Below are positions 2,610 to 17,582 of a stretch of 21,381 bases of DNA, one piece after another. Where the stretch lies: positions 1 to 21,381 of IMG/VR virus record IMGVR_UViG_3300044700_000275; one strand, given 5' to 3'. The position numbers and the translations under genes are program-made. The stretch is from a virus. Position 1 is the stretch's first letter. Every line of letters starts with the position of its first letter. The notes below the pieces were generated by a model. It was not told where the DNA came from. It made no database searches and saw only the letters and a program-made list of their open reading frames with translations.

Positions 2610-2855
2610 ATGTCATTTACCATCTATTCAAAACCAGGATGTCCCTATTGTGAAAAGTGCATTGCTGTACTGGAACATGAAGGTTTCACCCACGTTGTTT
2701 ATGAATTAGAAAAAGATTTTACAAGAGAAGAATTTTATTCCGAATTTGGTGAAGGATCCACCTTTCCCCAAATTACTTTAGATGGTATACAACTAGGTGG
2801 ATGCCGAGAAACAATCACTTACCTACAAGAAAATAATGTCTGCTGTAATGTCTGA
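2610..2855 (+). CDS. glutaredoxin (CPYC type)
   Basis: This encodes 81 residues, a normal length for a single-domain glutaredoxin. The active site CPYC is at residues 11-14, the cis-proline motif TFP at 51-53 and the GG glutathione-binding turn at 63-64. It would transfer electrons from glutathione in the host cytoplasm, most likely to ribonucleotide reductase, the role of T4 NrdC. Extra cysteines (17, 65, 78, 79) are unusual, in particular a CC pair near the C terminus. It lies 28 bases after tRNA-Pro. A TATAAT (2590-2595) without a clear -35 may help transcription. Its 3' end overlaps the antitoxin-like gene. Confidence 0.93.
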   Translation: MSFTIYSKPGCPYCEKCIAVLEHEGFTHVVYELEKDFTREEFYSEFGEGSTFPQITLDGIQLGGCRETITYLQENNVCCNV

Positions 2856-3096
2856 AGAAGTAACCGAAATCACAGAACTGGAACTGGAAAAAAACTTTGA
2901 TGAAATCATAGAGCGTGTTGAAGCTGGTGAAACATTCATCATTCGTAGGGAAGATGGATCGGCAGTTGCCATGGTCCCAGCTTCAGTCGTTGAGGAGGCA
3001 GGAGTAGATCTGTCAGCACTTTCTAAAAAGGCAGACCCCCTTGACAATGACGATGAACTGTGGGATAATTACTTTGATCACGACGAAGGAACTTGA
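2848..3096 (+). CDS. Phd/YefM-type antitoxin-like protein
   Basis: This encodes 82 residues from ATG 2848. ATG 2836 is also possible, giving 86 residues; an in-frame GTG at 2797 lies deep inside the glutaredoxin gene and is unlikely. Residues about 4-45 match the Phd/YefM N-terminal fold: a short strand, the pattern NFDEIIERVEAGE, then a strand of the type FIIRREDGSAVAMVP. This domain dimerises and binds operator DNA. The acidic tail (DNDDELWDNYFDHDEGT) sits where antitoxins carry the toxin-neutralising segment. No RelE/YoeB or Doc-like toxin lies next to it. It could neutralise a host toxin or act as a plain transcription regulator; both are inference. The overlap with the next start is TGATG. 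Confidence 0.72.
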   Translation: MSEEVTEITELELEKNFDEIIERVEAGETFIIRREDGSAVAMVPASVVEEAGVDLSALSKKADPLDNDDELWDNYFDHDEGT

Positions 3097-7628: not shown

Positions 7629-7877
7629 ATGGCATTATCAGAAGTTTCAGTAGTAGATAAGATCGAAGTTCTACTCAACGGATCTATTCAAGTAAGAAGA
7701 AGAGATCAAATCCTCAAAGATGGCACAGAAGTTGCTGCCACATATCATCGCCATGTAATCAACCCAGGCGATGATGTTTCAAACGAAGACCCAAGAGTTG
7801 CTGCTATCGCTGCTGCTACTTGGACCGAAGAAGTTGTTGCTGCTTACCAAGCATCACTAACACCAACAGAAGAATAA
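7629..7877 (+). CDS. small conserved-type protein downstream of tail fibre
   Basis: This encodes 82 residues. The N-terminal part (about 1-35) looks like two beta strands (VVDKIEVLLNGSIQVRRRD), followed by the pattern YHRHVINPGDDVSNEDPRV and a helical C terminus. Similar proteins are often encoded just after phage fibre genes, as I recall, but their role is not established. GGAG (7615-7618) precedes the ATG by 10 bases. Its own late promoter motif lies at the end of the fibre gene. A structural or fibre-accessory function is inference from position. Confidence 0.75.
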   Translation: MALSEVSVVDKIEVLLNGSIQVRRRDQILKDGTEVAATYHRHVINPGDDVSNEDPRVAAIAAATWTEEVVAAYQASLTPTEE

Positions 7878-7883
7878 TAAATA
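7876..7883 (+). promoter_or_regulatory. late promoter motif fused to stop codon
   Basis: AATAAATA overlaps the TAA stop (7875-7877) of the 82-residue gene and precedes the next ATG by 24 bases. It has the same arrangement as at 7583-7590. Confidence 0.45.
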
Positions 7884-7907: not shown

Positions 7908-8246
7908 ATGACTAATAAGAAAAACGAAAATGCTATGGGACAACTAATTCGTATATGTATTTTGGGTTGGTCTGCTGCTCTTCTAACCGCAAGCTATGCT
8001 GGCACTCTATCAAAGATGGATCCAACATTTATTGCGACAGTTTTTACTGCCTCTGCTGCGACATTTGGTATTAACACTATGAAGAAAGGCGGTGATGAGG
8101 AAGACGAGAAGAAAGAAGAGCCACGCAGAGAAGAAGTTGTAGAAGCACCACCAGAACCACCTGTAGAAGAAGTAGCAGCAACTCTCGAAGAAAGAGTTGA
8201 AGCACTTGAAGAAGGACAGGTACAACCAAGAACTGGAGTTGCCTGA
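7908..8246 (+). CDS. small membrane protein with acidic tail
   Basis: This encodes 112 residues. Two hydrophobic segments (about 12-31 and 38-56) form a likely membrane hairpin, followed by KKGGDEEDEKKEE and a long Glu/Pro-rich tail that ends in a short coiled-coil-like LEERVEALEEG. The layout resembles small phage membrane proteins, including some holins, but no lysis enzyme is nearby, so I do not call it a holin. The gene shares one base with the next (TGATG), implying joint expression. It is probably late, given the motif at 7876-7883. Confidence 0.7.
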   Translation: MTNKKNENAMGQLIRICILGWSAALLTASYAGTLSKMDPTFIATVFTASAATFGINTMKKGGDEEDEKKEEPRREEVVEAPPEPPVEEVAATLEERVEALEEGQVQPRTGVA

Positions 8247-8446
8247 TGCAGAAAGTATTTAATGCTCTCGCAGTTGCCTCATTTCTATTGAGCGCAACTG
8301 CCGTAGGTGCTGGTGTATATGCCTACATGAATAGAGAAACTTTGATTGAACAGGCAAAGCGTGAGATTATTGAAGCAGTTGTGCCTAAAGGTGTGAAAGA
8401 TCTACAAGAGAAACTACCTATCAAACTACCTATCAAATTGTTCTGA
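8246..8446 (+). CDS. small single-pass membrane protein
   Basis: This encodes 66 residues. One hydrophobic segment (about 7-27, Ala/Val/Gly-rich, with short-side residues resembling an uncleaved signal anchor) is followed by a charged helix and a repeated KLPIKLPIKLF C terminus. It overlaps both neighbours by one base, in a chain 7908-8246-8446-8625. Function is unknown. A partner role with the two-pass protein upstream is inferred only from coupling. Confidence 0.7.
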   Translation: MQKVFNALAVASFLLSATAVGAGVYAYMNRETLIEQAKREIIEAVVPKGVKDLQEKLPIKLPIKLF

Positions 8447-8625: not shown

Positions 8626-9321
8626 TTACTTCGAGTGAAACTTTTTGTATTGTTCTTTCTTTTCTTTCTTCTGTTCTTTCTTGAGTAACTTATTGACTTT
8701 CTTTAGGGAAGCAGATTTTTCAAAAGCAAAATAAACCTGAGTTTCATATGGGGTGAGATCCTTACTAAGGAGTTTCTTGCCCCTTACGAATAGTTGTTCG
8801 ATTACAGGTTTCATTCTTTTTACCATCCATTCCACCAAAGATTTGCCAACAAGAGCCGCAGCAACAGAAGCAGTAGCAGTGGTGCCAGCAAGAATAACCT
8901 GCTCTTTAGGTGGGATGGGAACTTCCCCGACGATTGGTACTTCAATGACGGGAACTCCTAGGTTAGTTTTGGGGACATCATCGGAAATAACCCGATTATC
9001 CTGGGGGGTTTGAACAGATGGAGGCAGTTGAGGGGTGGGGGTCTTACTATCGGGTAACCCTCTAGACTTTTCTTCTTTCTCTTCTTGCTGTTGCTTTTTC
9101 TCAGCTGCCACAGCAGCATCAAACTCTTCCTGTGTAGGAACATTGATGACTGGATACTTGATCGAAGTATCTGGTGCTGTGAATACAGGTAGTGCTATGC
9201 TACGACTAACTGGTTGTGGTGCTGAATAGATCACAGGAGGATCTATCGTTGGTATAATACTGGGACCTCCTATACCAACCTTGGGTATGCCATTAGAACC
9301 GATGGTTGGTATCTCACTCAT
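8626..9321 (-). CDS. proline-rich protein with hydrophobic segment
   Basis: This encodes 231 residues. The N-terminal half (1-62) is rich in Pro, Ile and Val with IPTIG/IIPTIDPP-type repeats. Next comes a Lys/Glu/Gln coiled stretch (70-87) and another Pro-rich segment (90-138). A hydrophobic Ala/Thr/Val segment (about 141-159) is then followed by a basic C terminus (190-231) containing many Lys. It could be a virion-associated or membrane-anchored protein. It is the last gene of a four-gene minus-strand operon, starting ATGA over the stop of the 190-residue gene. I recall proline-rich structural proteins in cyanophages, but identity is uncertain. Confidence 0.7.
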   Translation of the reverse strand: MSEIPTIGSNGIPKVGIGGPSIIPTIDPPVIYSAPQPVSRSIALPVFTAPDTSIKYPVINVPTQEEFDAAVAAEKKQQQEEKEEKSRGLPDSKTPTPQLPPSVQTPQDNRVISDDVPKTNLGVPVIEVPIVGEVPIPPKEQVILAGTTATASVAAALVGKSLVEWMVKRMKPVIEQLFVRGKKLLSKDLTPYETQVYFAFEKSASLKKVNKLLKKEQKKEKKEQYKKFHSK

Positions 9322-9890
9322 CTTGCCGCTGCCTCTTTGACAGATGGATACCTCACAACAACGTCAGCACAGACCTTATGATAAGGACTATCGGGATGGA
9401 AACTAATTCCATTCTTGATTGCCTCACCACACTTCAACAATCTGACTAATTCAAAGTCAAGTCTTGCCTTGTCTGCTTCAGCTTGTTGTCTAGATATTTC
9501 AACCTTTGCTCTTGCTTTACAGATCTCTTGTAGTGATCCATCTAGAGGAAAGTTGAAACCTAAACTCACCCCAAAGTTACCACTTTGAGTTTGAAATGAT
9601 TCTGGATCTTGACTGCTGTTGAAGTTCCCTAAAGCAAAGGGAGCAACACTCATCGTTGGTCCCTGACAACTGACACCAGCACCATAAGTATTCATCGCAT
9701 ATGGACCTTGTAATACTTGGACTGCTTGATTAGTAACGTTACCAGTAGCAGATGCTGAAGGTCCAGCGATGTTTGTATTTGATGGTGCTTGTTGTGCTCT
9801 ACCTGATGCTGCCAATAAAAAAATAATTATTGGGTAAATACAGATATGGAGTTTGTGGTAGATTTTTGTTCTGTCGTTCTGTCTATCCAT
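9318..9890 (-). CDS. secreted protein with helical C-terminal part
   Basis: This encodes 190 residues. The N terminus is basic, followed by a hydrophobic core (about 14-29) and SGRA before Gln33, a plausible Sec cleavage site. The mature protein has a Gly/Asn/Ser-rich beta-like part, including NFGVSLGFNF near residues 107-116, and then a charged helix (about 120-160) and four cysteines (Cys17 in the signal and three mature), which could form disulphides in the periplasm. The only available ATG makes its first 64 bases overlap the end of the upstream gene in another frame. The overlap encodes the signal-peptide region. Location in the periplasm or outer envelope is inferred; function unknown. 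Confidence 0.72.
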   Translation of the reverse strand: MDRQNDRTKIYHKLHICIYPIIIFLLAASGRAQQAPSNTNIAGPSASATGNVTNQAVQVLQGPYAMNTYGAGVSCQGPTMSVAPFALGNFNSSQDPESFQTQSGNFGVSLGFNFPLDGSLQEICKARAKVEISRQQAEADKARLDFELVRLLKCGEAIKNGISFHPDSPYHKVCADVVVRYPSVKEAAAR

Positions 9891-10192
9891 GTTTCTTTTG
9901 CCACTCCAGGGCCAAGGTATGTTTCGCTAAACTGGAATGGAGCACCTTGAGTTTGAATGGTATAAGTTTGTCCGTATGAAGGACTGCCAGGGATATTAAT
10001 ATTAGTTCCAGTCACAGTGTATGATATGCCAGTTGTATATTCAACTTGACGAATTGTTTCTACTATTTTTGTAGCTGTTTCTGTGGTTGCAGTAATCGTG
10101 CCTCTAGTAAAATTAGGCACAACACTTTCAGCATGTGCAGGAGTACAAATGACTCCCACTGCTAAAAGCAAAGCGGGAGTTATACGTCTCAT
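9827..10192 (-). CDS. secreted protein, paralogue of upstream gene
   Basis: This encodes 121 residues. Residues 1-21 are a clear signal peptide (Arg2-Arg3, hydrophobic core, AHA before Glu22). The mature part contains SYTVTGTNI, then TYTIQTQGAPFQFSETYLG. These align with SVSGTNI and TYSINTAGQAFTFSETL in the gene just upstream, indicating a local duplication followed by divergence. It is Thr/Ser-rich and probably beta-structured. It starts ATGA over the upstream stop, and its 3' end overlaps the next gene by 64 bases. Export suggests an envelope role in the host or an unusual virion assembly route. Function unknown. Confidence 0.75.
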   Translation of the reverse strand: MRRITPALLLAVGVICTPAHAESVVPNFTRGTITATTETATKIVETIRQVEYTTGISYTVTGTNINIPGSPSYGQTYTIQTQGAPFQFSETYLGPGVAKETWIDRTTEQKSTTNSISVFTQ

Positions 10193-10635
10193 TTAAATAC
10201 GCTCAATTCGATCGATCTTTGACCAGTAGCGGTAGTACCAGCACCACCAGCAGTCACAGTAGGGACTGATGTGTTAGACAAAGTACCAGCAAGGCTTCCA
10301 GCAGAACCAGCAGCAGTAGAGGTAATATTTCCATAGGGAGCAATAGCGCCAGTTGATACAGAGTTAGGTGCGGTGTCTGCATCAATTAACGTTTCAGAAA
10401 ACGTAAATGCTTGACCAGCAGTATTAATTGAATATGTACCAGCACCAGCAACACCACCAAATGTGGATGACTGGATATTAGTACCCGAAACTGAGTATTG
10501 ACCACCAACTCGAATCGCTTGGGAGGCAGCTGCATCTACCTTGAGTTGGACAGAATCTGTAATTTTAGAAGTAATTTCAGCGGCACTTGTAGGAATAGCA
10601 AAGAATAACGAAAAGATAAAGACTAGTCTTTTCAT
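10189..10635 (-). CDS. secreted Ala/Thr/Ser-rich protein, first gene of operon
   Basis: From ATG 10635 this encodes 148 residues. A longer form from ATG 10656 adds seven residues, but the late promoter motif at 10660-10666 is so close to 10656 that the mRNA would begin near that codon. The chosen start gives a classic signal peptide: Lys2-Arg3, a Phe/Leu/Ile core, then SAA before Glu20. The mature part is rich in Ala, Thr, Ser and Gly and shares the YSVSGTNI...FTFSETL core with the next gene. It is probably a beta-structured exported protein. No enzymatic motif is seen. Confidence 0.75.
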   Translation of the reverse strand: MKRLVFIFSLFFAIPTSAAEITSKITDSVQLKVDAAASQAIRVGGQYSVSGTNIQSSTFGGVAGAGTYSINTAGQAFTFSETLIDADTAPNSVSTGAIAPYGNITSTAAGSAGSLAGTLSNTSVPTVTAGGAGTTATGQRSIELSVFK

Positions 10636-10659
10636 TTTCTTATTTTGTGGGACCATATT

Positions 10660-10666
10660 TATTTAG
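10660..10666 (-). promoter_or_regulatory. late promoter motif for secreted-protein operon
   Basis: On the minus strand the sequence reads CTAAATA, followed by a second overlapping ATAAATA (10656-10662). It matches the cyanophage version of the T4 late promoter and sits just upstream of the four-gene operon 10635-8626. Confidence 0.6.
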
Positions 10667-11375: not shown

Positions 11376-12455
11376 ATGACCGCAACTCTCGCTCGTCAGC
11401 AGCAAGAAACACAGTGGGAACAGTTTTGTAAGTGGGTCACCTCTACCGATAACCGCCTCTATGTGGGTTGGTTTGGCGTTCTGATGATCCCTACACTTCT
11501 CGCCGCTACTACTTGCTTCATCATCGCTTTCATCGGCGCACCCCCTGTCGATATCGACGGCATCCGTGAACCTGTCGCTGGTTCTCTGATGTGGGGCAAT
11601 AACATCATCTCTGGTGCTGTTGTTCCTAGTTCCAATGCTATTGGACTTCACTTCTATCCCATCTGGGAAGCTGCCTCTCTTGATGAGTGGCTATATAATG
11701 GCGGACCATTTCAACTGGTCGTCTTCCACTTTCTGATTGGCATTTATGCTTACATGGGTCGTGAATGGGAACTCTCTTACCGATTGGGTATGCGTCCTTG
11801 GATTTGTGTTGCCTACAGCGCACCCGTTGCTGCTGCTTCTGCAGTGTTCCTCGTCTATCCCTTTGGACAAGGTTCCTTCTCTGATGCCATGCCGCTCGGC
11901 ATTAGTGGAACATTTAACTACATGCTTGTTTTTCAGGCGGAGCATAATATTCTCATGCACCCCTTCCATATGCTTGGGGTGGCTGGTGTATTTGGCGGTT
12001 CTCTTTTCTCTGCTATGCATGGATCTCTGGTCACTTCTTCACTCGTTCGTGAGACGACAGAAGTAGAAAGTCAGAACTATGGTTACAAGTTCGGTCAAGA
12101 AGAAGAGACCTACAATATTGTTGCTGCTCATGGTTACTTTGGTCGTTTGATCTTCCAATACGCATCGTTCAACAACTCTCGTTCACTACACTTCTTCCTT
12201 GCTGCTTGGCCTGTAGTTGGTATCTGGTTCACTGCTCTTGGTGTTAGCACCATGGCATTCAACCTCAACGGTTTCAACTTCAACCAGAGCATCGTTGATA
12301 GTCAGAACCGTGTCATCCCTACTTGGGCAGACATTTTGAACCGTGGTGGTCTGGGTATGGAAGTTATGCACGAGCGTAACGCTCACAACTTCCCTCTTGA
12401 TCTTGCTGCTGCTGATAGCACTCCTGTTGCTCTTACAGCACCTGCTATTGGTTGA
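11376..12455 (+). CDS. psbA: photosystem II reaction-centre D1 protein
   Basis: This encodes 359 residues, full length for D1, with no intron. All key residues are in register: Tyr161 (YZ), His190 (YZ partner), His198 (P680), His215 and His272 (non-haem iron), Ser264 and His252 (QB pocket), and Mn-cluster ligands Asp170, Glu189, His332, Glu333, Asp342 and Ala344. C-terminal processing after Ala344 would remove 15 residues. Residue 130 is Glu (GREW), the state linked with high-light D1 isoforms. It replaces photodamaged host D1 in the thylakoid so that photosynthesis continues during infection. A sigma70-type promoter lies about 80 bases upstream and hli genes precede it. The sequence is very close to marine Synechococcus D1. 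Confidence 0.99.
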
Positions 12456-14156: not shown

Positions 14157-14185
14157 TTTTGTAAAATGTATTTTATTTTACAAAA
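14157..14185. repeat. perfect 11-bp AT-rich inverted repeat
   Basis: TTTTGTAAAAT (14157-14167) and ATTTTACAAAA (14175-14185) are separated by 7 bases. The element follows the stop at 14154 and precedes a TATAAT (14193-14198) by 7 bases. It may be a terminator-like 3' hairpin or an operator. Confidence 0.6.
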
Positions 14186-14192
14186 AATATAG

Positions 14193-14198
14193 TATAAT
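14193..14198 (+). promoter_or_regulatory. -10 box for 50-residue gene
   Basis: TATAAT stands without a recognisable -35 at the right distance; upstream is only the AT-rich inverted repeat. The leader (about 14205-14257) has CGTTCATC twice (14207-14214, 14249-14256) and a UUCG-capped mini-hairpin (14213-14222). An activator-dependent middle promoter is possible. Confidence 0.4.
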
Positions 14199-14257
14199 TA
14201 CATATACGTTCATCCTTCGGGACGGAAGTAAGACAACTCGGAACGGGTCGTTCATCT

Positions 14258-14410
14258 ATGGAAGCAGTCATTCTTACATGCTTGCAAGCACAATTAATCG
14301 TGGGAAGAGTTCATCAACAGAACATTCCTAAGCAAGCTAAGAATGATTTGATTTGGGAGATCAAACAGATCTCTCCAAAAACTTGTACCATAGACGCAAA
14401 AGTTGACTGA
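14258..14410 (+). CDS. 50-residue hypothetical protein
   Basis: This short gene runs from ATG 14258 to TGA 14410. The protein starts MEAVILTCLQAQLIVGRVHQ, an amphipathic or weakly hydrophobic helix, and continues IPKQAKNDLIWEIKQISPKTC; it has two cysteines. It appears soluble and helical. A promoter-like -10 and a leader of about 50 bases precede it. I recall similar short proteins in marine cyanophages and cyanobacteria but cannot verify. Function unknown. Confidence 0.6.
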   Translation: MEAVILTCLQAQLIVGRVHQQNIPKQAKNDLIWEIKQISPKTCTIDAKVD

Positions 14411-14449
14411 AGGAACGCTCTTTAACCTAAACCACTAAGGAGAAACCTA

Positions 14450-14599
14450 ATGTCACAAGCAACATATCGTGGTGTACAATATGACACCGAAACAAAAAGA
14501 GAGGAATTGGTAGCAAACTGGCTTCCAATTATCCAAAAACAAATTGAAAAGCAGAATAAACTAAAGCAAGCACAGCTTGCCATGGCAATGAAAATGTGA
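14450..14599 (+). CDS. 49-residue DUF4278-like protein
   Basis: This short gene starts at ATG 14450 with a strong AAGGAG (14437-14442) 7 bases upstream. The N terminus TYRGVQYDTE matches the short signature of the cyanobacterial DUF4278 family (YRGVxY). The rest is a Lys/Gln-rich helix ending MAMAMKM-like. The family's role is not known to me. Its 3' end contains a sigma70-like promoter (14577-14605). Confidence 0.68.
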   Translation: MSQATYRGVQYDTETKREELVANWLPIIQKQIEKQNKLKQAQLAMAMKM

Positions 14600-14605
14600 T
14601 ATAAT
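14577..14605 (+). promoter_or_regulatory. extended -10 promoter within end of DUF4278-like gene
   Basis: TTGCCA (14577-14582), a 17-base spacer and TG-A-TATAAT (14597-14605). The -35 is half of the perfect palindrome TTGCCATGGCAA (14577-14588). A terminator at 14630-14655 lies only about 20 bases beyond the start site, so the transcript would be about 45 bases. Confidence 0.6.
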
Positions 14606-14607
14606 AT

Positions 14608-14655
14608 ACTTCCGTGTGAAGGAAGTGGGGGGGAGGTTCACCTCCCCTTTTTTTT
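14608..14655 (+). terminator. tandem hairpins with T-run
   Basis: First hairpin ACTTCC (14608-14613)/GGAAGT (14621-14626). Second hairpin GGGGAGG (14630-14636)/CCTCCCC (14641-14647) with loop TTCA, followed by eight T. It is a strong intrinsic terminator for the DUF4278-like gene. Confidence 0.85.
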
Positions 14656-14665
14656 ATGTTATAAT
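14637..14665 (+). promoter_or_regulatory. extended -10 promoter overlapping terminator
   Basis: TG-T-TATAAT (14657-14665) is an extended -10. At a 17-base spacing lies TTCACC (14637-14642), a 4/6 match to TTGACA, beginning in the loop of the terminator hairpin. It would start near 14672 and read the 52-residue gene. Confidence 0.55.
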
Positions 14666-14687
14666 TAGTAGTGTATGTCATGCTACC

Positions 14688-14846
14688 ATGGACAAGGAAA
14701 GATTAAAACTTATAGTTAAAAACTTGAAACTCCTGGTGCAATCGTTAGAATCAGAAATATATTCTGATGTGGATGCTTATAAGGCAGGTCCTACATCAAG
14801 CAAATCCTACTCTAGCGGAGACGATGATGATGGCTACCCCGATTAA
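14688..14846 (+). CDS. 52-residue hypothetical protein
   Basis: The chosen start is ATG 14688, downstream of the promoter at 14637-14665; a longer frame from 14616 would begin inside the terminator hairpins and is rejected. The protein has an N-terminal amphipathic helix (MDKERLKLIVKNLKLLVQSL) and a Ser/Asp-rich acidic tail ending DDDDGYPD. It overlaps the next gene by about 20 bases in another frame. Function unknown. Confidence 0.6.
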   Translation: MDKERLKLIVKNLKLLVQSLESEIYSDVDAYKAGPTSSKSYSSGDDDDGYPD

Positions 14847-15057: not shown

Positions 15058-15329
15058 GATTTAAAGATACAATCAAGGTTGCGAAGAAAGCGATTAAGCT
15101 TGCAGAAAAGAACCCAATGATGTATACTAATGAGGAGATCCTGTATATGAAGAAGGCACTTCGCCTGGCAAAGCAAGGTCTTGAAGAAAAACGTGAACGA
15201 TTGAGTAGAGGATTTAAACCGAATGCAACAACATGGTCAAGTCAAACTAGTGTCAGTGACACCCCAAGCGGAACAGACGATGGGGTATGTAGCGAGAGTG
15301 AGCAATCCTCAGAACCAGGAGAACCCTAA
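15054..15329 (+). CDS. basic helical protein with Ser/Glu-rich tail overlapping thyX
   Basis: This encodes 91 residues. Residues 1-52 form a Lys/Ala/Leu-rich helix pair (KVAKKAIKLAEKNP, KKALRLAKQGLEEKRERL). The remaining part is a disordered Ser/Thr/Glu-rich tail. GGAGG (15042-15046) lies upstream and the start overlaps the previous stop as ATGA. The last 107 bases overlap the start of thyX in a different frame, so the tail may be under constraint from ThyX rather than selected itself. Function unknown. Confidence 0.68.
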   Translation: MRFKDTIKVAKKAIKLAEKNPMMYTNEEILYMKKALRLAKQGLEEKRERLSRGFKPNATTWSSQTSVSDTPSGTDDGVCSESEQSSEPGEP

Positions 15330-15870
15330 CGTCGCTGGTCTGCTCAAGTACTGCATCAATCATCAGCATTGGTCTGTATTTGAGCAGGCACATATGACGC
15401 TGGAGATTGAAACCAACCGTGGTATCGCAGCTCAAATCTTGAGGCACCGTTCTTTCACCTATCAAGAATTCTCACAGCGTTATGCTGATGTGAATTGGTT
15501 GGAGGGTGGTATTCCTATACCTGATCTCCGCAGTCAAGATAACAAGAACCGTCAAAATTCGATCGATGATATCCCTGAAACCACAAAAAAAGATCTCCAA
15601 GCGCACATTAATCGTCACTTCGTTGAAGCGATGGATCTATACAACGAGTTGCTTAGGCAAGGAGTTGCGAAGGAGTGTGCGAGATTTGTTCTCCCACTAG
15701 CAACGCCCACAAAAATCTACATGACAGGATCTGTGCGTTCGTGGATACATTACATAAATCTACGCAGTGCTCATGGCACTCAGAAAGAACACATGGATAT
15801 TGCTAACGCTTGTAAGCAAGTCTTTGTTGAACAATTCCCTATTTGTGCTGAAGCGTTGGGGTGGAACTAA
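15223..15870 (+). CDS. thyX: flavin-dependent thymidylate synthase
   Basis: This encodes 215 residues, the usual ThyX length. The signature RHRSFTYQEFSQRY (residues 74-87) carries the RHRxxSxxExSxRY pattern that binds FAD and dUMP. The N terminus VKLVSVTPQAE and a C-terminal TGSVRSWIHYINLRS stretch also fit. The enzyme makes dTMP from dUMP using methylene-tetrahydrofolate and reduced flavin, supplying thymidine for phage DNA. ATG 15223 is required to include the first beta strand, which forces a 107-base overlap with the upstream gene. The stop overlaps the next gene as TAATG. Confidence 0.97.
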   Translation: MQQHGQVKLVSVTPQAEQTMGYVARVSNPQNQENPNVAGLLKYCINHQHWSVFEQAHMTLEIETNRGIAAQILRHRSFTYQEFSQRYADVNWLEGGIPIPDLRSQDNKNRQNSIDDIPETTKKDLQAHINRHFVEAMDLYNELLRQGVAKECARFVLPLATPTKIYMTGSVRSWIHYINLRSAHGTQKEHMDIANACKQVFVEQFPICAEALGWN

Positions 15871-16134: not shown

Positions 16135-16890
16135 ATGCCAGTAAGAAAGAAAACCATTCATAAAGCACCTGGACAAGGTATGAGTTCCAAGCAGAAGAAA
16201 CGTCGCAAACCAATTGATGAAGCATACATGCTTCCGATTGAACCTCTCACTCATAATCAACAACTCTTCTTTGATGAGTGGGACAAGGGGCAGATGCTCT
16301 ATGCTTATGGAGTAGCTGGAACAGGTAAGACTTTTATTGCTCTATACAAAGCACTCAAAGATGTGTTGAATGAATACACACCTTATGAAAAGATCTATAT
16401 TGTTCGTTCTCTTGTAGCTACACGAGAGATTGGTTTTCTTCCTGGCGACCATGAAGATAAATCTTCTCTCTATCAGATCCCATACAAGAACATGGTACAA
16501 TCTATGTTCGAGATGCCAGATGATAACTCATACGATATGCTGTATGATAATCTGAAGCAGCAAGAAACTATTTCGTTCTGGTCTACAAGTTTCATTCGTG
16601 GCACCACTCTTGATAACTCAATCGTTATCATCGATGAATGTCAGAACTTGAATTTTCACGAACTTGATAGTATAATTACTCGTGTGGGGCAAGATACAAA
16701 GATTGTTTTTTGTGGTGATGCTTCACAAACAGACCTCGTTAAGATCAGCGAGCGTTCTGGTATCCTAGACTTCCAGCGTATTCTGAATAAGATGCCTGAG
16801 TTTTCTCTTGTTGAATTTGGTATTGAAGATATCGTTCGTTCTGGTCTTGTCAAGTCTTATATTATTAACAAAATCAATCTTGGTCTATGA
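16135..16890 (+). CDS. phoH: PhoH-like P-loop ATPase
   Basis: This encodes 251 residues from ATG 16135, one base after the preceding stop; an upstream start inside that gene would add 24 residues and is unlikely. Walker A GVAGTGKT is at residues 59-66, FIRGTTLDN at 153-161, Walker B IVIIDECQN at 163-171 and the sensor-like GDASQTD at 194-200; RSGLVKSYI near the end is typical of phage PhoH. A basic N-terminal segment (KKTIHK, KKRRKP) precedes the domain. It is a cytoplasmic ATPase with a proposed RNA or phosphate-stress role, not settled. The stop overlaps the nuclease gene as ATGA. Confidence 0.96.
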   Translation: MPVRKKTIHKAPGQGMSSKQKKRRKPIDEAYMLPIEPLTHNQQLFFDEWDKGQMLYAYGVAGTGKTFIALYKALKDVLNEYTPYEKIYIVRSLVATREIGFLPGDHEDKSSLYQIPYKNMVQSMFEMPDDNSYDMLYDNLKQQETISFWSTSFIRGTTLDNSIVIIDECQNLNFHELDSIITRVGQDTKIVFCGDASQTDLVKISERSGILDFQRILNKMPEFSLVEFGIEDIVRSGLVKSYIINKINLGL

Positions 16891-17582
16891 AGTTATTTAA
16901 TCATGTTGGTGGTCTAACGCCAATCGAACTGGAAGCTGAAACGGTAGATGGCAAACGTCTTTACCCAACACCAGATGGAAACTTTGCGTCAGTCACCACC
17001 GTGATTAGTAGCAATAAAGAAAAGATGGCGGGTATTGCTCGCTGGAGACAACGTATAGGAGAGGAGAAAGCAAATGCAATCTCCTCTCGCTCTACCAATC
17101 GTGGAACAAAGTATCATTCTATTGTTGAAGACTACCTCAATAATAAACTTGATCTCAAAAAGTATCAAAAGTTCCCACTTCCTGTGCTGATGTTCCAGCA
17201 TAGTCGTGAAGTTCTTGATAGGATAAATAATATATACCTTCAGGAAGCAGCACTCTACTCTAAGCATCTAGAGTTAGCAGGGCGTGTTGATTGTATCGCA
17301 GAGTTTGATGGTGAATTATCTATTATTGATTTCAAAACAGCAGCAGAACCAAAGCGAGAACAATACCTTTACGACTACTTTGTTCAGGAAACAGCATATG
17401 CCTGTATGCTTCAAGAACTATATGGATTGCGAGTAAAACAACTCGTGACAATCGTTGCTTGTGAAAACGGTGAAACTCAAGTCAAGGTGCTTCCACCAAA
17501 GAAAGAATTTTTCATCAAACTGATGGGTTACATCGAAGAATACCAAGAACGATATGGACAAAAAACAATTATTAGAGGATAG
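16887..17582 (+). CDS. PD-(D/E)XK exonuclease, RecB/MGME1-like
   Basis: This encodes 231 residues. The nuclease core is visible: RGTKYH (72-77) with His77, a Glu at 120, GRVD (132-135) and IIDFK (146-150) giving the Asp-x-Lys catalytic pair, then the Q-x-x-A-Y-A helix (167-172). This order matches the RecB/Cas4/MGME1 group that degrades DNA ends, often single-stranded. In the phage it would act in recombination, replication-fork processing or host DNA breakdown. It is coupled to phoH (ATGA) and its end precedes the gp33-like start by four bases. No Cas4-type iron-sulphur cysteine cluster is seen. Confidence 0.9.
   Translation: MKLFNHVGGLTPIELEAETVDGKRLYPTPDGNFASVTTVISSNKEKMAGIARWRQRIGEEKANAISSRSTNRGTKYHSIVEDYLNNKLDLKKYQKFPLPVLMFQHSREVLDRINNIYLQEAALYSKHLELAGRVDCIAEFDGELSIIDFKTAAEPKREQYLYDYFVQETAYACMLQELYGLRVKQLVTIVACENGETQVKVLPPKKEFFIKLMGYIEEYQERYGQKTIIRG

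Follow-up and report, generated by a model that had tools for sequence, protein, structure and literature searches.

The question raised by this locus is what a phage might do with a compact set of overlapping genes whose products appear to be sent out of the cytoplasm, and at what stage of infection. The window studied (the whole stretch of DNA, 21,381 nucleotides of an IMG/VR virus record) is placed among the T4-like cyanomyoviruses by psbA (11376-12455, plus strand), by its T4-type genes and by its relatives, the closest of which among the phage records searched are the freshwater Synechococcus phages DSL-LC02 and DSL-LC03. An earlier note on this DNA had placed four overlapping minus-strand genes at 8626-10635; these coordinates are correct, and the genes, here termed g1 to g4, overlap by 4, 64 and 4 nt at the g1/g2, g2/g3 and g3/g4 junctions, with g3 starting inside g2 in a different frame. 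psbA lies upstream of the g1 operon and diverges from it, as it does in DSL-LC02, DSL-LC03 and S-SM2; the divergent neighbour in S-SM1 and Syn9 is hsp20.

All four genes belong to, or are related to, families met in other cyanophages. The putatively secreted products of g1 (10189-10635, 148 residues; T4-GC 237, phrog_564) and g2 (9827-10192, 121 residues; T4-GC 236, phrog_650) are, by profile comparison, paralogues (hhalign E 3e-9 / 5e-7), g2 matching Pfam DUF6322 (PF19847) at 51 bits against a cut-off of 30.6 and g1 scoring 14.1 bits, below that cut-off. The third gene, g3 (9318-9890, 190 residues; T4-GC 235, phrog_848/1755), also encodes a predicted secreted protein, and g4 (8626-9321, 231 residues; phrog_9426, a relative of T4-GC 234 / phrog_570) a Pro-rich protein with a C-terminal transmembrane segment and a Lys-rich tail. 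The assignments to T4-GC 234-237 follow from PHROG matches, from gene order in P-SSM2, Syn19 and S-SM1, and from hhalign comparisons between the groups; the records of these three phages label the counterparts of g1, g2 and g3 as T4-GC 237, 236 and 235, adjoined by T4-GC 234 (the g4 relative), 219, 414 ('plasmid stability') and 218 (DUF6450).

The evidence for export is consistent for the first three proteins. The signal peptides of g1 (10582-10635; MKRLVFIFSLFFAIPTSA followed by AEI) and g2 (10130-10192; MRRITPALLLAVGVICTPAHA followed by ESV) pass a rule combining n/h/c regions with the (-3,-1) positions, as does that of g3 (9795-9890), for which the rule picks the site LLAASG/RA and LLAASGRA/QQ is preferred, and whose n-region shares its coding sequence with the end of g2. 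A second in-frame ATG for g1 is present at 10656. The rule is crude, in that transmembrane segments also trigger a pass, and control ORFs (150 residues or longer) pass it in 17-20% of cases; relatives pass in 129 of 130 cases for g1, 225 of 231 for g2 and 201 of 246 for g3. Most homologues have one hydrophobic segment, located at the N terminus (g1, 121/149; g2, 232/247; g3, 235/248), and mature g3 has four invariant Cys residues. Together the signal peptides, the single-segment hydropathy and these Cys residues indicate, from the sequences, that g1-g3 are exported.

The fourth protein is of another kind. Only 24 of 230 g4 homologues pass the signal-peptide rule, and the most hydrophobic 17-residue stretch of the window protein (residues 142-158, 8848-8898, minus strand; KD 1.89) lies between a Pro-rich N-terminal part and a basic tail, as a single transmembrane segment. 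The flank after this segment is more basic than that before it in 98% of 231 homologues, and marine relatives have several Cys residues in the N-terminal part; since both features fit an N-out/C-in topology, that topology is predicted for g4. Thus the reading of this block as encoding Sec signal peptides in three genes and a hydrophobic segment in the fourth has held, and the signal-peptide prediction that was proposed as a check, run with the simple rule, came out positive for g1-g3 and negative for g4.

The late-type promoter that had been reported ahead of these genes is also present. An AATAAATA motif at 10656-10663 on the minus strand, overlapping the second ATG, precedes the g1 start at 10635 by about 28 nt; it belongs to the NATAAATA class, which is a published cyanophage late promoter (PMC2984593). 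The window has only 8 NATAAATA sites with both strands counted, and the motif occurs in 29 of 102 distinct g1 upstream regions, where it clusters some 30 nt ahead of the start codon; among random 90-nt segments 1.0% contain it. Late timing of the operon is a prediction resting on the motif. Scans for sigma-70 promoters and for terminators gave no signal above shuffles, and no terminator-like fold was found 3' of g4. The cyanophage virion, transcriptome and genome papers searched do not give virion presence or expression class for the genes concerned. The earlier proposal of export in late infection is supported by the signal peptides and the motif, export itself being a prediction.

A second AATAAATA motif (7876-7883, plus strand) lies 32 nt upstream of a gene at 7908-8246 (plus strand, T4-GC 218) that converges on g1-g4 and encodes a candidate holin, a two-TM protein of the DUF6450 family (PF20048; 58.4 bits, cut-off 25; P-SSP7 orf43 scores 111 bits). 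It is followed at 8246-8446 (plus strand) by a gene for a small single-TM protein (T4-GC 414, phrog_568), the usual companion of these genes in cyanomyoviruses, labelled 'plasmid stability', a name without Pfam support. Elsewhere in the window, ORF 2797-3096 (plus strand) weakly resembles Phd/YefM antitoxins, at 20.7 bits and under the cut-off, and no toxin partner was recognised in the ORF that follows.

Five of the gene groups involved have been described together before: Sullivan et al. in 2010 reported T4-GC 218, 219, 234, 235 and 237 as a cluster present in all their cyanophages except S-PM2, gave it no function, and read it as a possibly mobile cassette, in cyanomyoviruses (PMC3037559). 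The genes in the window are the same, with 7908-8246 corresponding to 218 and 8246-8446 to 414, and with g4 being only a relative of 234. S-PM2, although without the cluster, is a lytic phage (PMC3037559), and no gene of the module was found in the 1-49.9 and 115-164.9 kb regions of S-CREM2 that were examined, which makes the virion proteome of that phage uninformative for these genes. A tblastn search with g3 reached 461 phage records, nearly all named Synechococcus, Prochlorococcus or cyanophage, a number to be read against the approximately 460 records so named that are matched by another cyanomyovirus gene, ORF 16887-17582. It had been suggested that the four-gene block be sought in other cyanophages; g2, g3 and g4, together with DUF6450, are found in cyanomyoviruses, in T7-like cyanopodoviruses including P-SSP7 (orf42-45), S-RIP1 and P-SCSP1a, and in phage MED4-184. 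The cluster in cyanomyoviruses was known; its extension to podoviruses and MED4-184, and its tie to export and to lysozyme genes, are added here.

The linkage of the module is conserved even where its arrangement is not. About 250 loci, most of them taken from three viral scans and many on incomplete contigs, were searched with profiles, which found g3 in 251, g2 in 247, g4 in 240, DUF6450 in 215, g1 in 149 and the 'plasmid stability' gene in 141. Across these cyanomyovirus and T7-like cyanopodovirus loci g2, g3, g4 and DUF6450 stay together in several orders and orientations: phages like that of the window have g1>g2>g3>g4> facing the 'plasmid stability' and DUF6450 genes, marine phages have g1>g2>g3> facing g4, 219, the 'plasmid stability' gene and DUF6450, and 73 podovirus loci have the order g4>DUF6450>g2>g3>. 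Because pooled profiles can force homology, the families were split into freshwater-myovirus, marine-myovirus and podovirus sets; all between-set hhalign pairs were significant (g2, E 2e-14 to 3e-31; g3, 7e-29 to 3e-53; g4, 6e-11 to 3e-14, limited to the transmembrane segment and the C-terminal ~60 residues; DUF6450, 1e-19 to 3e-35), and seven mismatched controls were all negative.

Two observations on individual loci may be recorded here. The g4 gene is inverted relative to g1-g3 between DSL-LC03 (locus L091, 9049-9696) and DSL-LC02 (locus L001, 9284-9949), and the module has therefore been rearranged while being kept together. In P-SSP7 orf45 (locus L003, 6477-7040) and similar podovirus loci, the deposited start leaves out the signal peptide; the frame runs upstream into orf44 through a signal-like segment and, since there is no ATG, GTG or TTG close by, a distant upstream start or a rare initiation codon may be used.

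One scan of cellular genomes found no cellular homologue of the module. A host origin was considered for its 17 matches and rejected, as all have module neighbours and most plausibly represent phage contigs within MAGs, SAGs or isolate genomes. These results bear on the proposal that the proteins serve an auxiliary function in the envelope, as an outer-membrane channel or periplasmic assembly keeping up nutrient inflow to the infected cell. In several cyanomyoviruses the block is indeed near pstS, phoA, psbA or hli genes, and cyanophages also have a separate outer-membrane-type barrel protein, represented in the window by 1053-1430. The presence of the module in small podovirus genomes and the outcome of the cellular scan nevertheless argue against such a role, as does the late motif, given that the auxiliary metabolic genes of P-HM2 are expressed in the middle cluster (PMC5082946); we consider it very unlikely. 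The 1053-1430 gene itself (plus strand) encodes another exported protein (125 residues, N-terminal signal) matching PF24653, 'Cyanophage outer membrane protein like beta barrel domain', at 97 bits, and precedes a gene for a DUF401-type membrane protein (1437-2477).

The most informative neighbour is DUF6450. Its members are small (median 111 residues) and 210 of 215 have two TM-like segments, so that they have the size and the two TM segments of class II holins, such as S of lambdoid phage 21, which they also resemble in a charged C-terminal tail and, in some freshwater cyanomyoviruses, in lying adjacent to a lysozyme gene; they differ from class II holins in falling outside the holin families by sequence. 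The best reading of DUF6450 is, on these grounds, as a holin-like protein, with holin activity inferred. A PF00959 lysozyme gene is on the DUF6450 strand in 30 freshwater cyanomyovirus loci, and directly upstream of DUF6450 and abutting it in 18 of the 55 freshwater loci with room for it; as these loci are related to one another, the 18 do not count as independent events. A gene for a C39-type peptidase often comes next after the freshwater lysozyme. In DSL-LC02 (locus L001) the lysozyme (14163-14834) and the C39 peptidase (15193-15864) have some 40 N-terminal residues in common (DLHNFFKFYD..HV.AVQWLEDNLP), which may form a shared targeting or binding domain. No lysozyme gene was seen beside DUF6450 in the window itself or in any of 47 eligible marine cyanomyovirus loci; among podovirus loci with room, 11 of 50 have a PF00959 lysozyme 2-3 kb downstream.

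The position of the module in podoviruses is also suggestive. It lies close to terminase genes in P-SSP7, S-RIP1 and P-SCSP1a; in P-SSP7, orf42-45 are flanked by the tail fibre genes on one side and terS on the other. In T7 the holin gene 17.5 is likewise between fibre and terS, and the Rz/Rz1 genes 18.5/18.7 are interleaved with the terminase genes 18 and 19. The cyanopodovirus modules thus occupy the same interval as the T7 lysis genes, with which they also have in common a small TM protein and partner genes overlapping out of frame, but comprise a larger set of envelope proteins rather than an Rz/Rz1 pair.

Since exported proteins with a late motif are linked to a two-TM protein that neighbours a lysozyme in freshwater phages, and since the module is kept in phages with different tails and the same kind of host, g1-g4 are probably, a judgement that we hold with moderate confidence, the component, within a lysis (phage-release) cassette, that acts on the outer envelope; the cassette would be common to most phages of Synechococcus and Prochlorococcus, the most abundant phototrophic bacteria in sea and lake water. 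Set against this reading are the marine loci and the window, with no lysozyme gene beside DUF6450, the small share of podovirus loci that have one nearby, and the lytic nature of S-PM2, which lacks the cluster. The option of lysis or release raised by the earlier note is therefore supported by the linkage to DUF6450 across virion types, by the freshwater lysozyme and C39 genes and by the T7-lysis-like position in podoviruses; what that interpretation missed is that the functional unit extends onto the opposite strand (7908-8446, plus), that the cluster was already on record from 2010, with no function assigned, and that g1 is a paralogue of g2. No sequence similarity of the module to holin or spanin families was found, a search of NCBIfam gave no match, and profiles of g2, g3 and g4 gave no significant match in PDB sequence searches. 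Our literature search found no paper naming a holin or outer-membrane lysis protein for Synechococcus or Prochlorococcus phages.

Structure models give some indication of how such proteins might act. That of g3 is weak overall and poor at the N terminus (pLDDT 68, pTM 0.38), with two strands of ~12 residues and a 42-residue helix predicted better (pLDDT about 80-92); the predicted β-hairpin spans mature residues 47-81 (9552-9656, minus strand) and the helix mature residues 86-127 (9414-9539, minus strand). The second strand of the hairpin is strongly amphipathic, with hydrophobic/polar alternation across 60 sequences (permutation p 0.005-0.03, uncorrected per-window values), and the loop between the strands is highly variable in length, as in surface loops. 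The order of amphipathic hairpin, Pro turn and long helix is like that in TolC and the OEP family (PF02321), which is the commonest weak Pfam match within the g3 family (15.3 bits, cut-off 22) and supplies about half of the best 50 Foldseek rows, none of them significant and all with E > 0.5 (VIA Z 2.2-2.4); it differs in that g3 has one hairpin rather than two repeats, and four conserved Cys residues. hhalign gave no match of g3 to E. coli TolC, CusC or the control CusB, and membership of g3 in the OEP/TolC family was rejected on this result with TolC and CusC and on the PF02321 score. The model hints at an oligomeric outer-membrane channel, oligomerisation being inferred; the idea that g3 acts in the manner of an OEP half-repeat is a lead.

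The same anatomy is compatible with a trans-envelope export channel, in which g3 in the outer membrane, g4 and DUF6450 in the inner membrane, and g1/g2 would move a product, e.g. muralytic enzymes, without general lysis. Proteins are predicted in both membranes, and muralytic genes are near in freshwater phages. The module, however, has no ATPase or other energy source, OEP membership fails, and the substrate is a guess; this explanation is distinctly unlikely.

The g2 model (pLDDT 80) has two 24-residue antiparallel strands without a membrane-type amphipathic pattern. Its Foldseek/VIA look-alikes, comprising pore-toxin stems, FliF rings and phage collar proteins with Z values up to about 4, were set aside as a likeness of shape, not a relationship. 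Such a long hairpin would suit superinfection exclusion or receptor masking, in which the exported proteins would cover or alter the outer membrane of the late-infected cell and block adsorption or injection by released or competing phages; export, the late motif and the confinement of the module to phages of a single host group would suit it too. At least four linked proteins are, however, kept in nearly all loci and with different tails, which we take to exceed the usual need of exclusion, and the freshwater linkage to lysozyme and C39 peptidase points elsewhere, so that this alternative is unlikely.

The weak fold matches of the g2 model to phage collar/tail proteins (phi29, P68, Andhra), and the genes annotated as tail fibre that adjoin the P-SSP7 homologues, raise the further alternative that g1-g3 are virion proteins, i.e. 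appendage or tail components with incidental cleavable N termini. That virion proteins normally lack signal peptides, as had been argued beforehand, is reasonable as a rule of thumb, though it cannot serve as a test. Capsids and tails are assembled in the cytoplasm, and the same set of genes occurs in contractile-tailed and T7-like cyanophages, both of which weigh against a place in the virion. An indirect marker agrees: in the S-SM2 record gp4, gp53 and T4-GC 15, orthologues of proteins that the 2010 paper names as part of the S-SM1 virion (PMC3037559), are annotated as 'similar to Synechococcus phage S-SM1 protein', whereas T4-GC 234, 235 and 237 do not. We regard a virion role as highly improbable.

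Returning to the lysis reading, late transcription would supply the periplasm and outer membrane with g1-g3 and the inner membrane with g4, the Pro-rich N-terminal part of which would face the periplasm. DUF6450 would act as a class II-type holin, giving muralytic enzymes access to the peptidoglycan, and a g1-g4 assembly would then breach or bridge the outer membrane, replacing spanins. In the most speculative step, g3 would oligomerise, each protomer contributing one amphipathic β-hairpin to an outer-membrane barrel with a helical periplasmic stem, and g1/g2 would contribute long β-hairpins. That these components make up one spanin-independent outer-membrane breaching machine with no known counterpart, in which a g3 channel and g1/g2 hairpins are linked across the periplasm to g4, is a possible but doubtful extension.

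The proposed outer-membrane step, and the out-of-frame overlap of g2 and g3, recall lambda Rz/Rz1, and g4, with its long extracytoplasmic part and C-terminal TM segment, recalls the unimolecular spanin T1 gp11. By contrast with spanins, the module has no lipobox, g4 has no N-terminal export signal, and g3 appears to be a hairpin-plus-helix protein rather than a lipoprotein; since there is no lipobox, the module proteins are not considered to be spanins. A two-component spanin was rejected because the cleavage sites deduced for g1-g3 are of the AxA type and have no Cys at +1, and a unimolecular spanin because g4 has a C-terminal TM segment and neither N-terminal signal nor lipobox. Disruptins, small cationic peptides that replace spanins, as in phage phiKT, offer a precedent for spanin-independent rupture of the outer membrane of the kind proposed, but are single short peptides rather than a multi-protein secreted set.

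If the lysis reading is correct, it would give a function to five widespread groups (PHROGs 564, 650, 848/1755, 570/9426 and 721/2714/21865), explain a cluster that has been without one since 2010, and provide a spanin replacement for study in engineerable cyanophages, of which Syn9 and S-TIP37 are already examples (PMC8776855). The lysis of Synechococcus and Prochlorococcus by viruses ranks among the main routes by which marine carbon is turned over.
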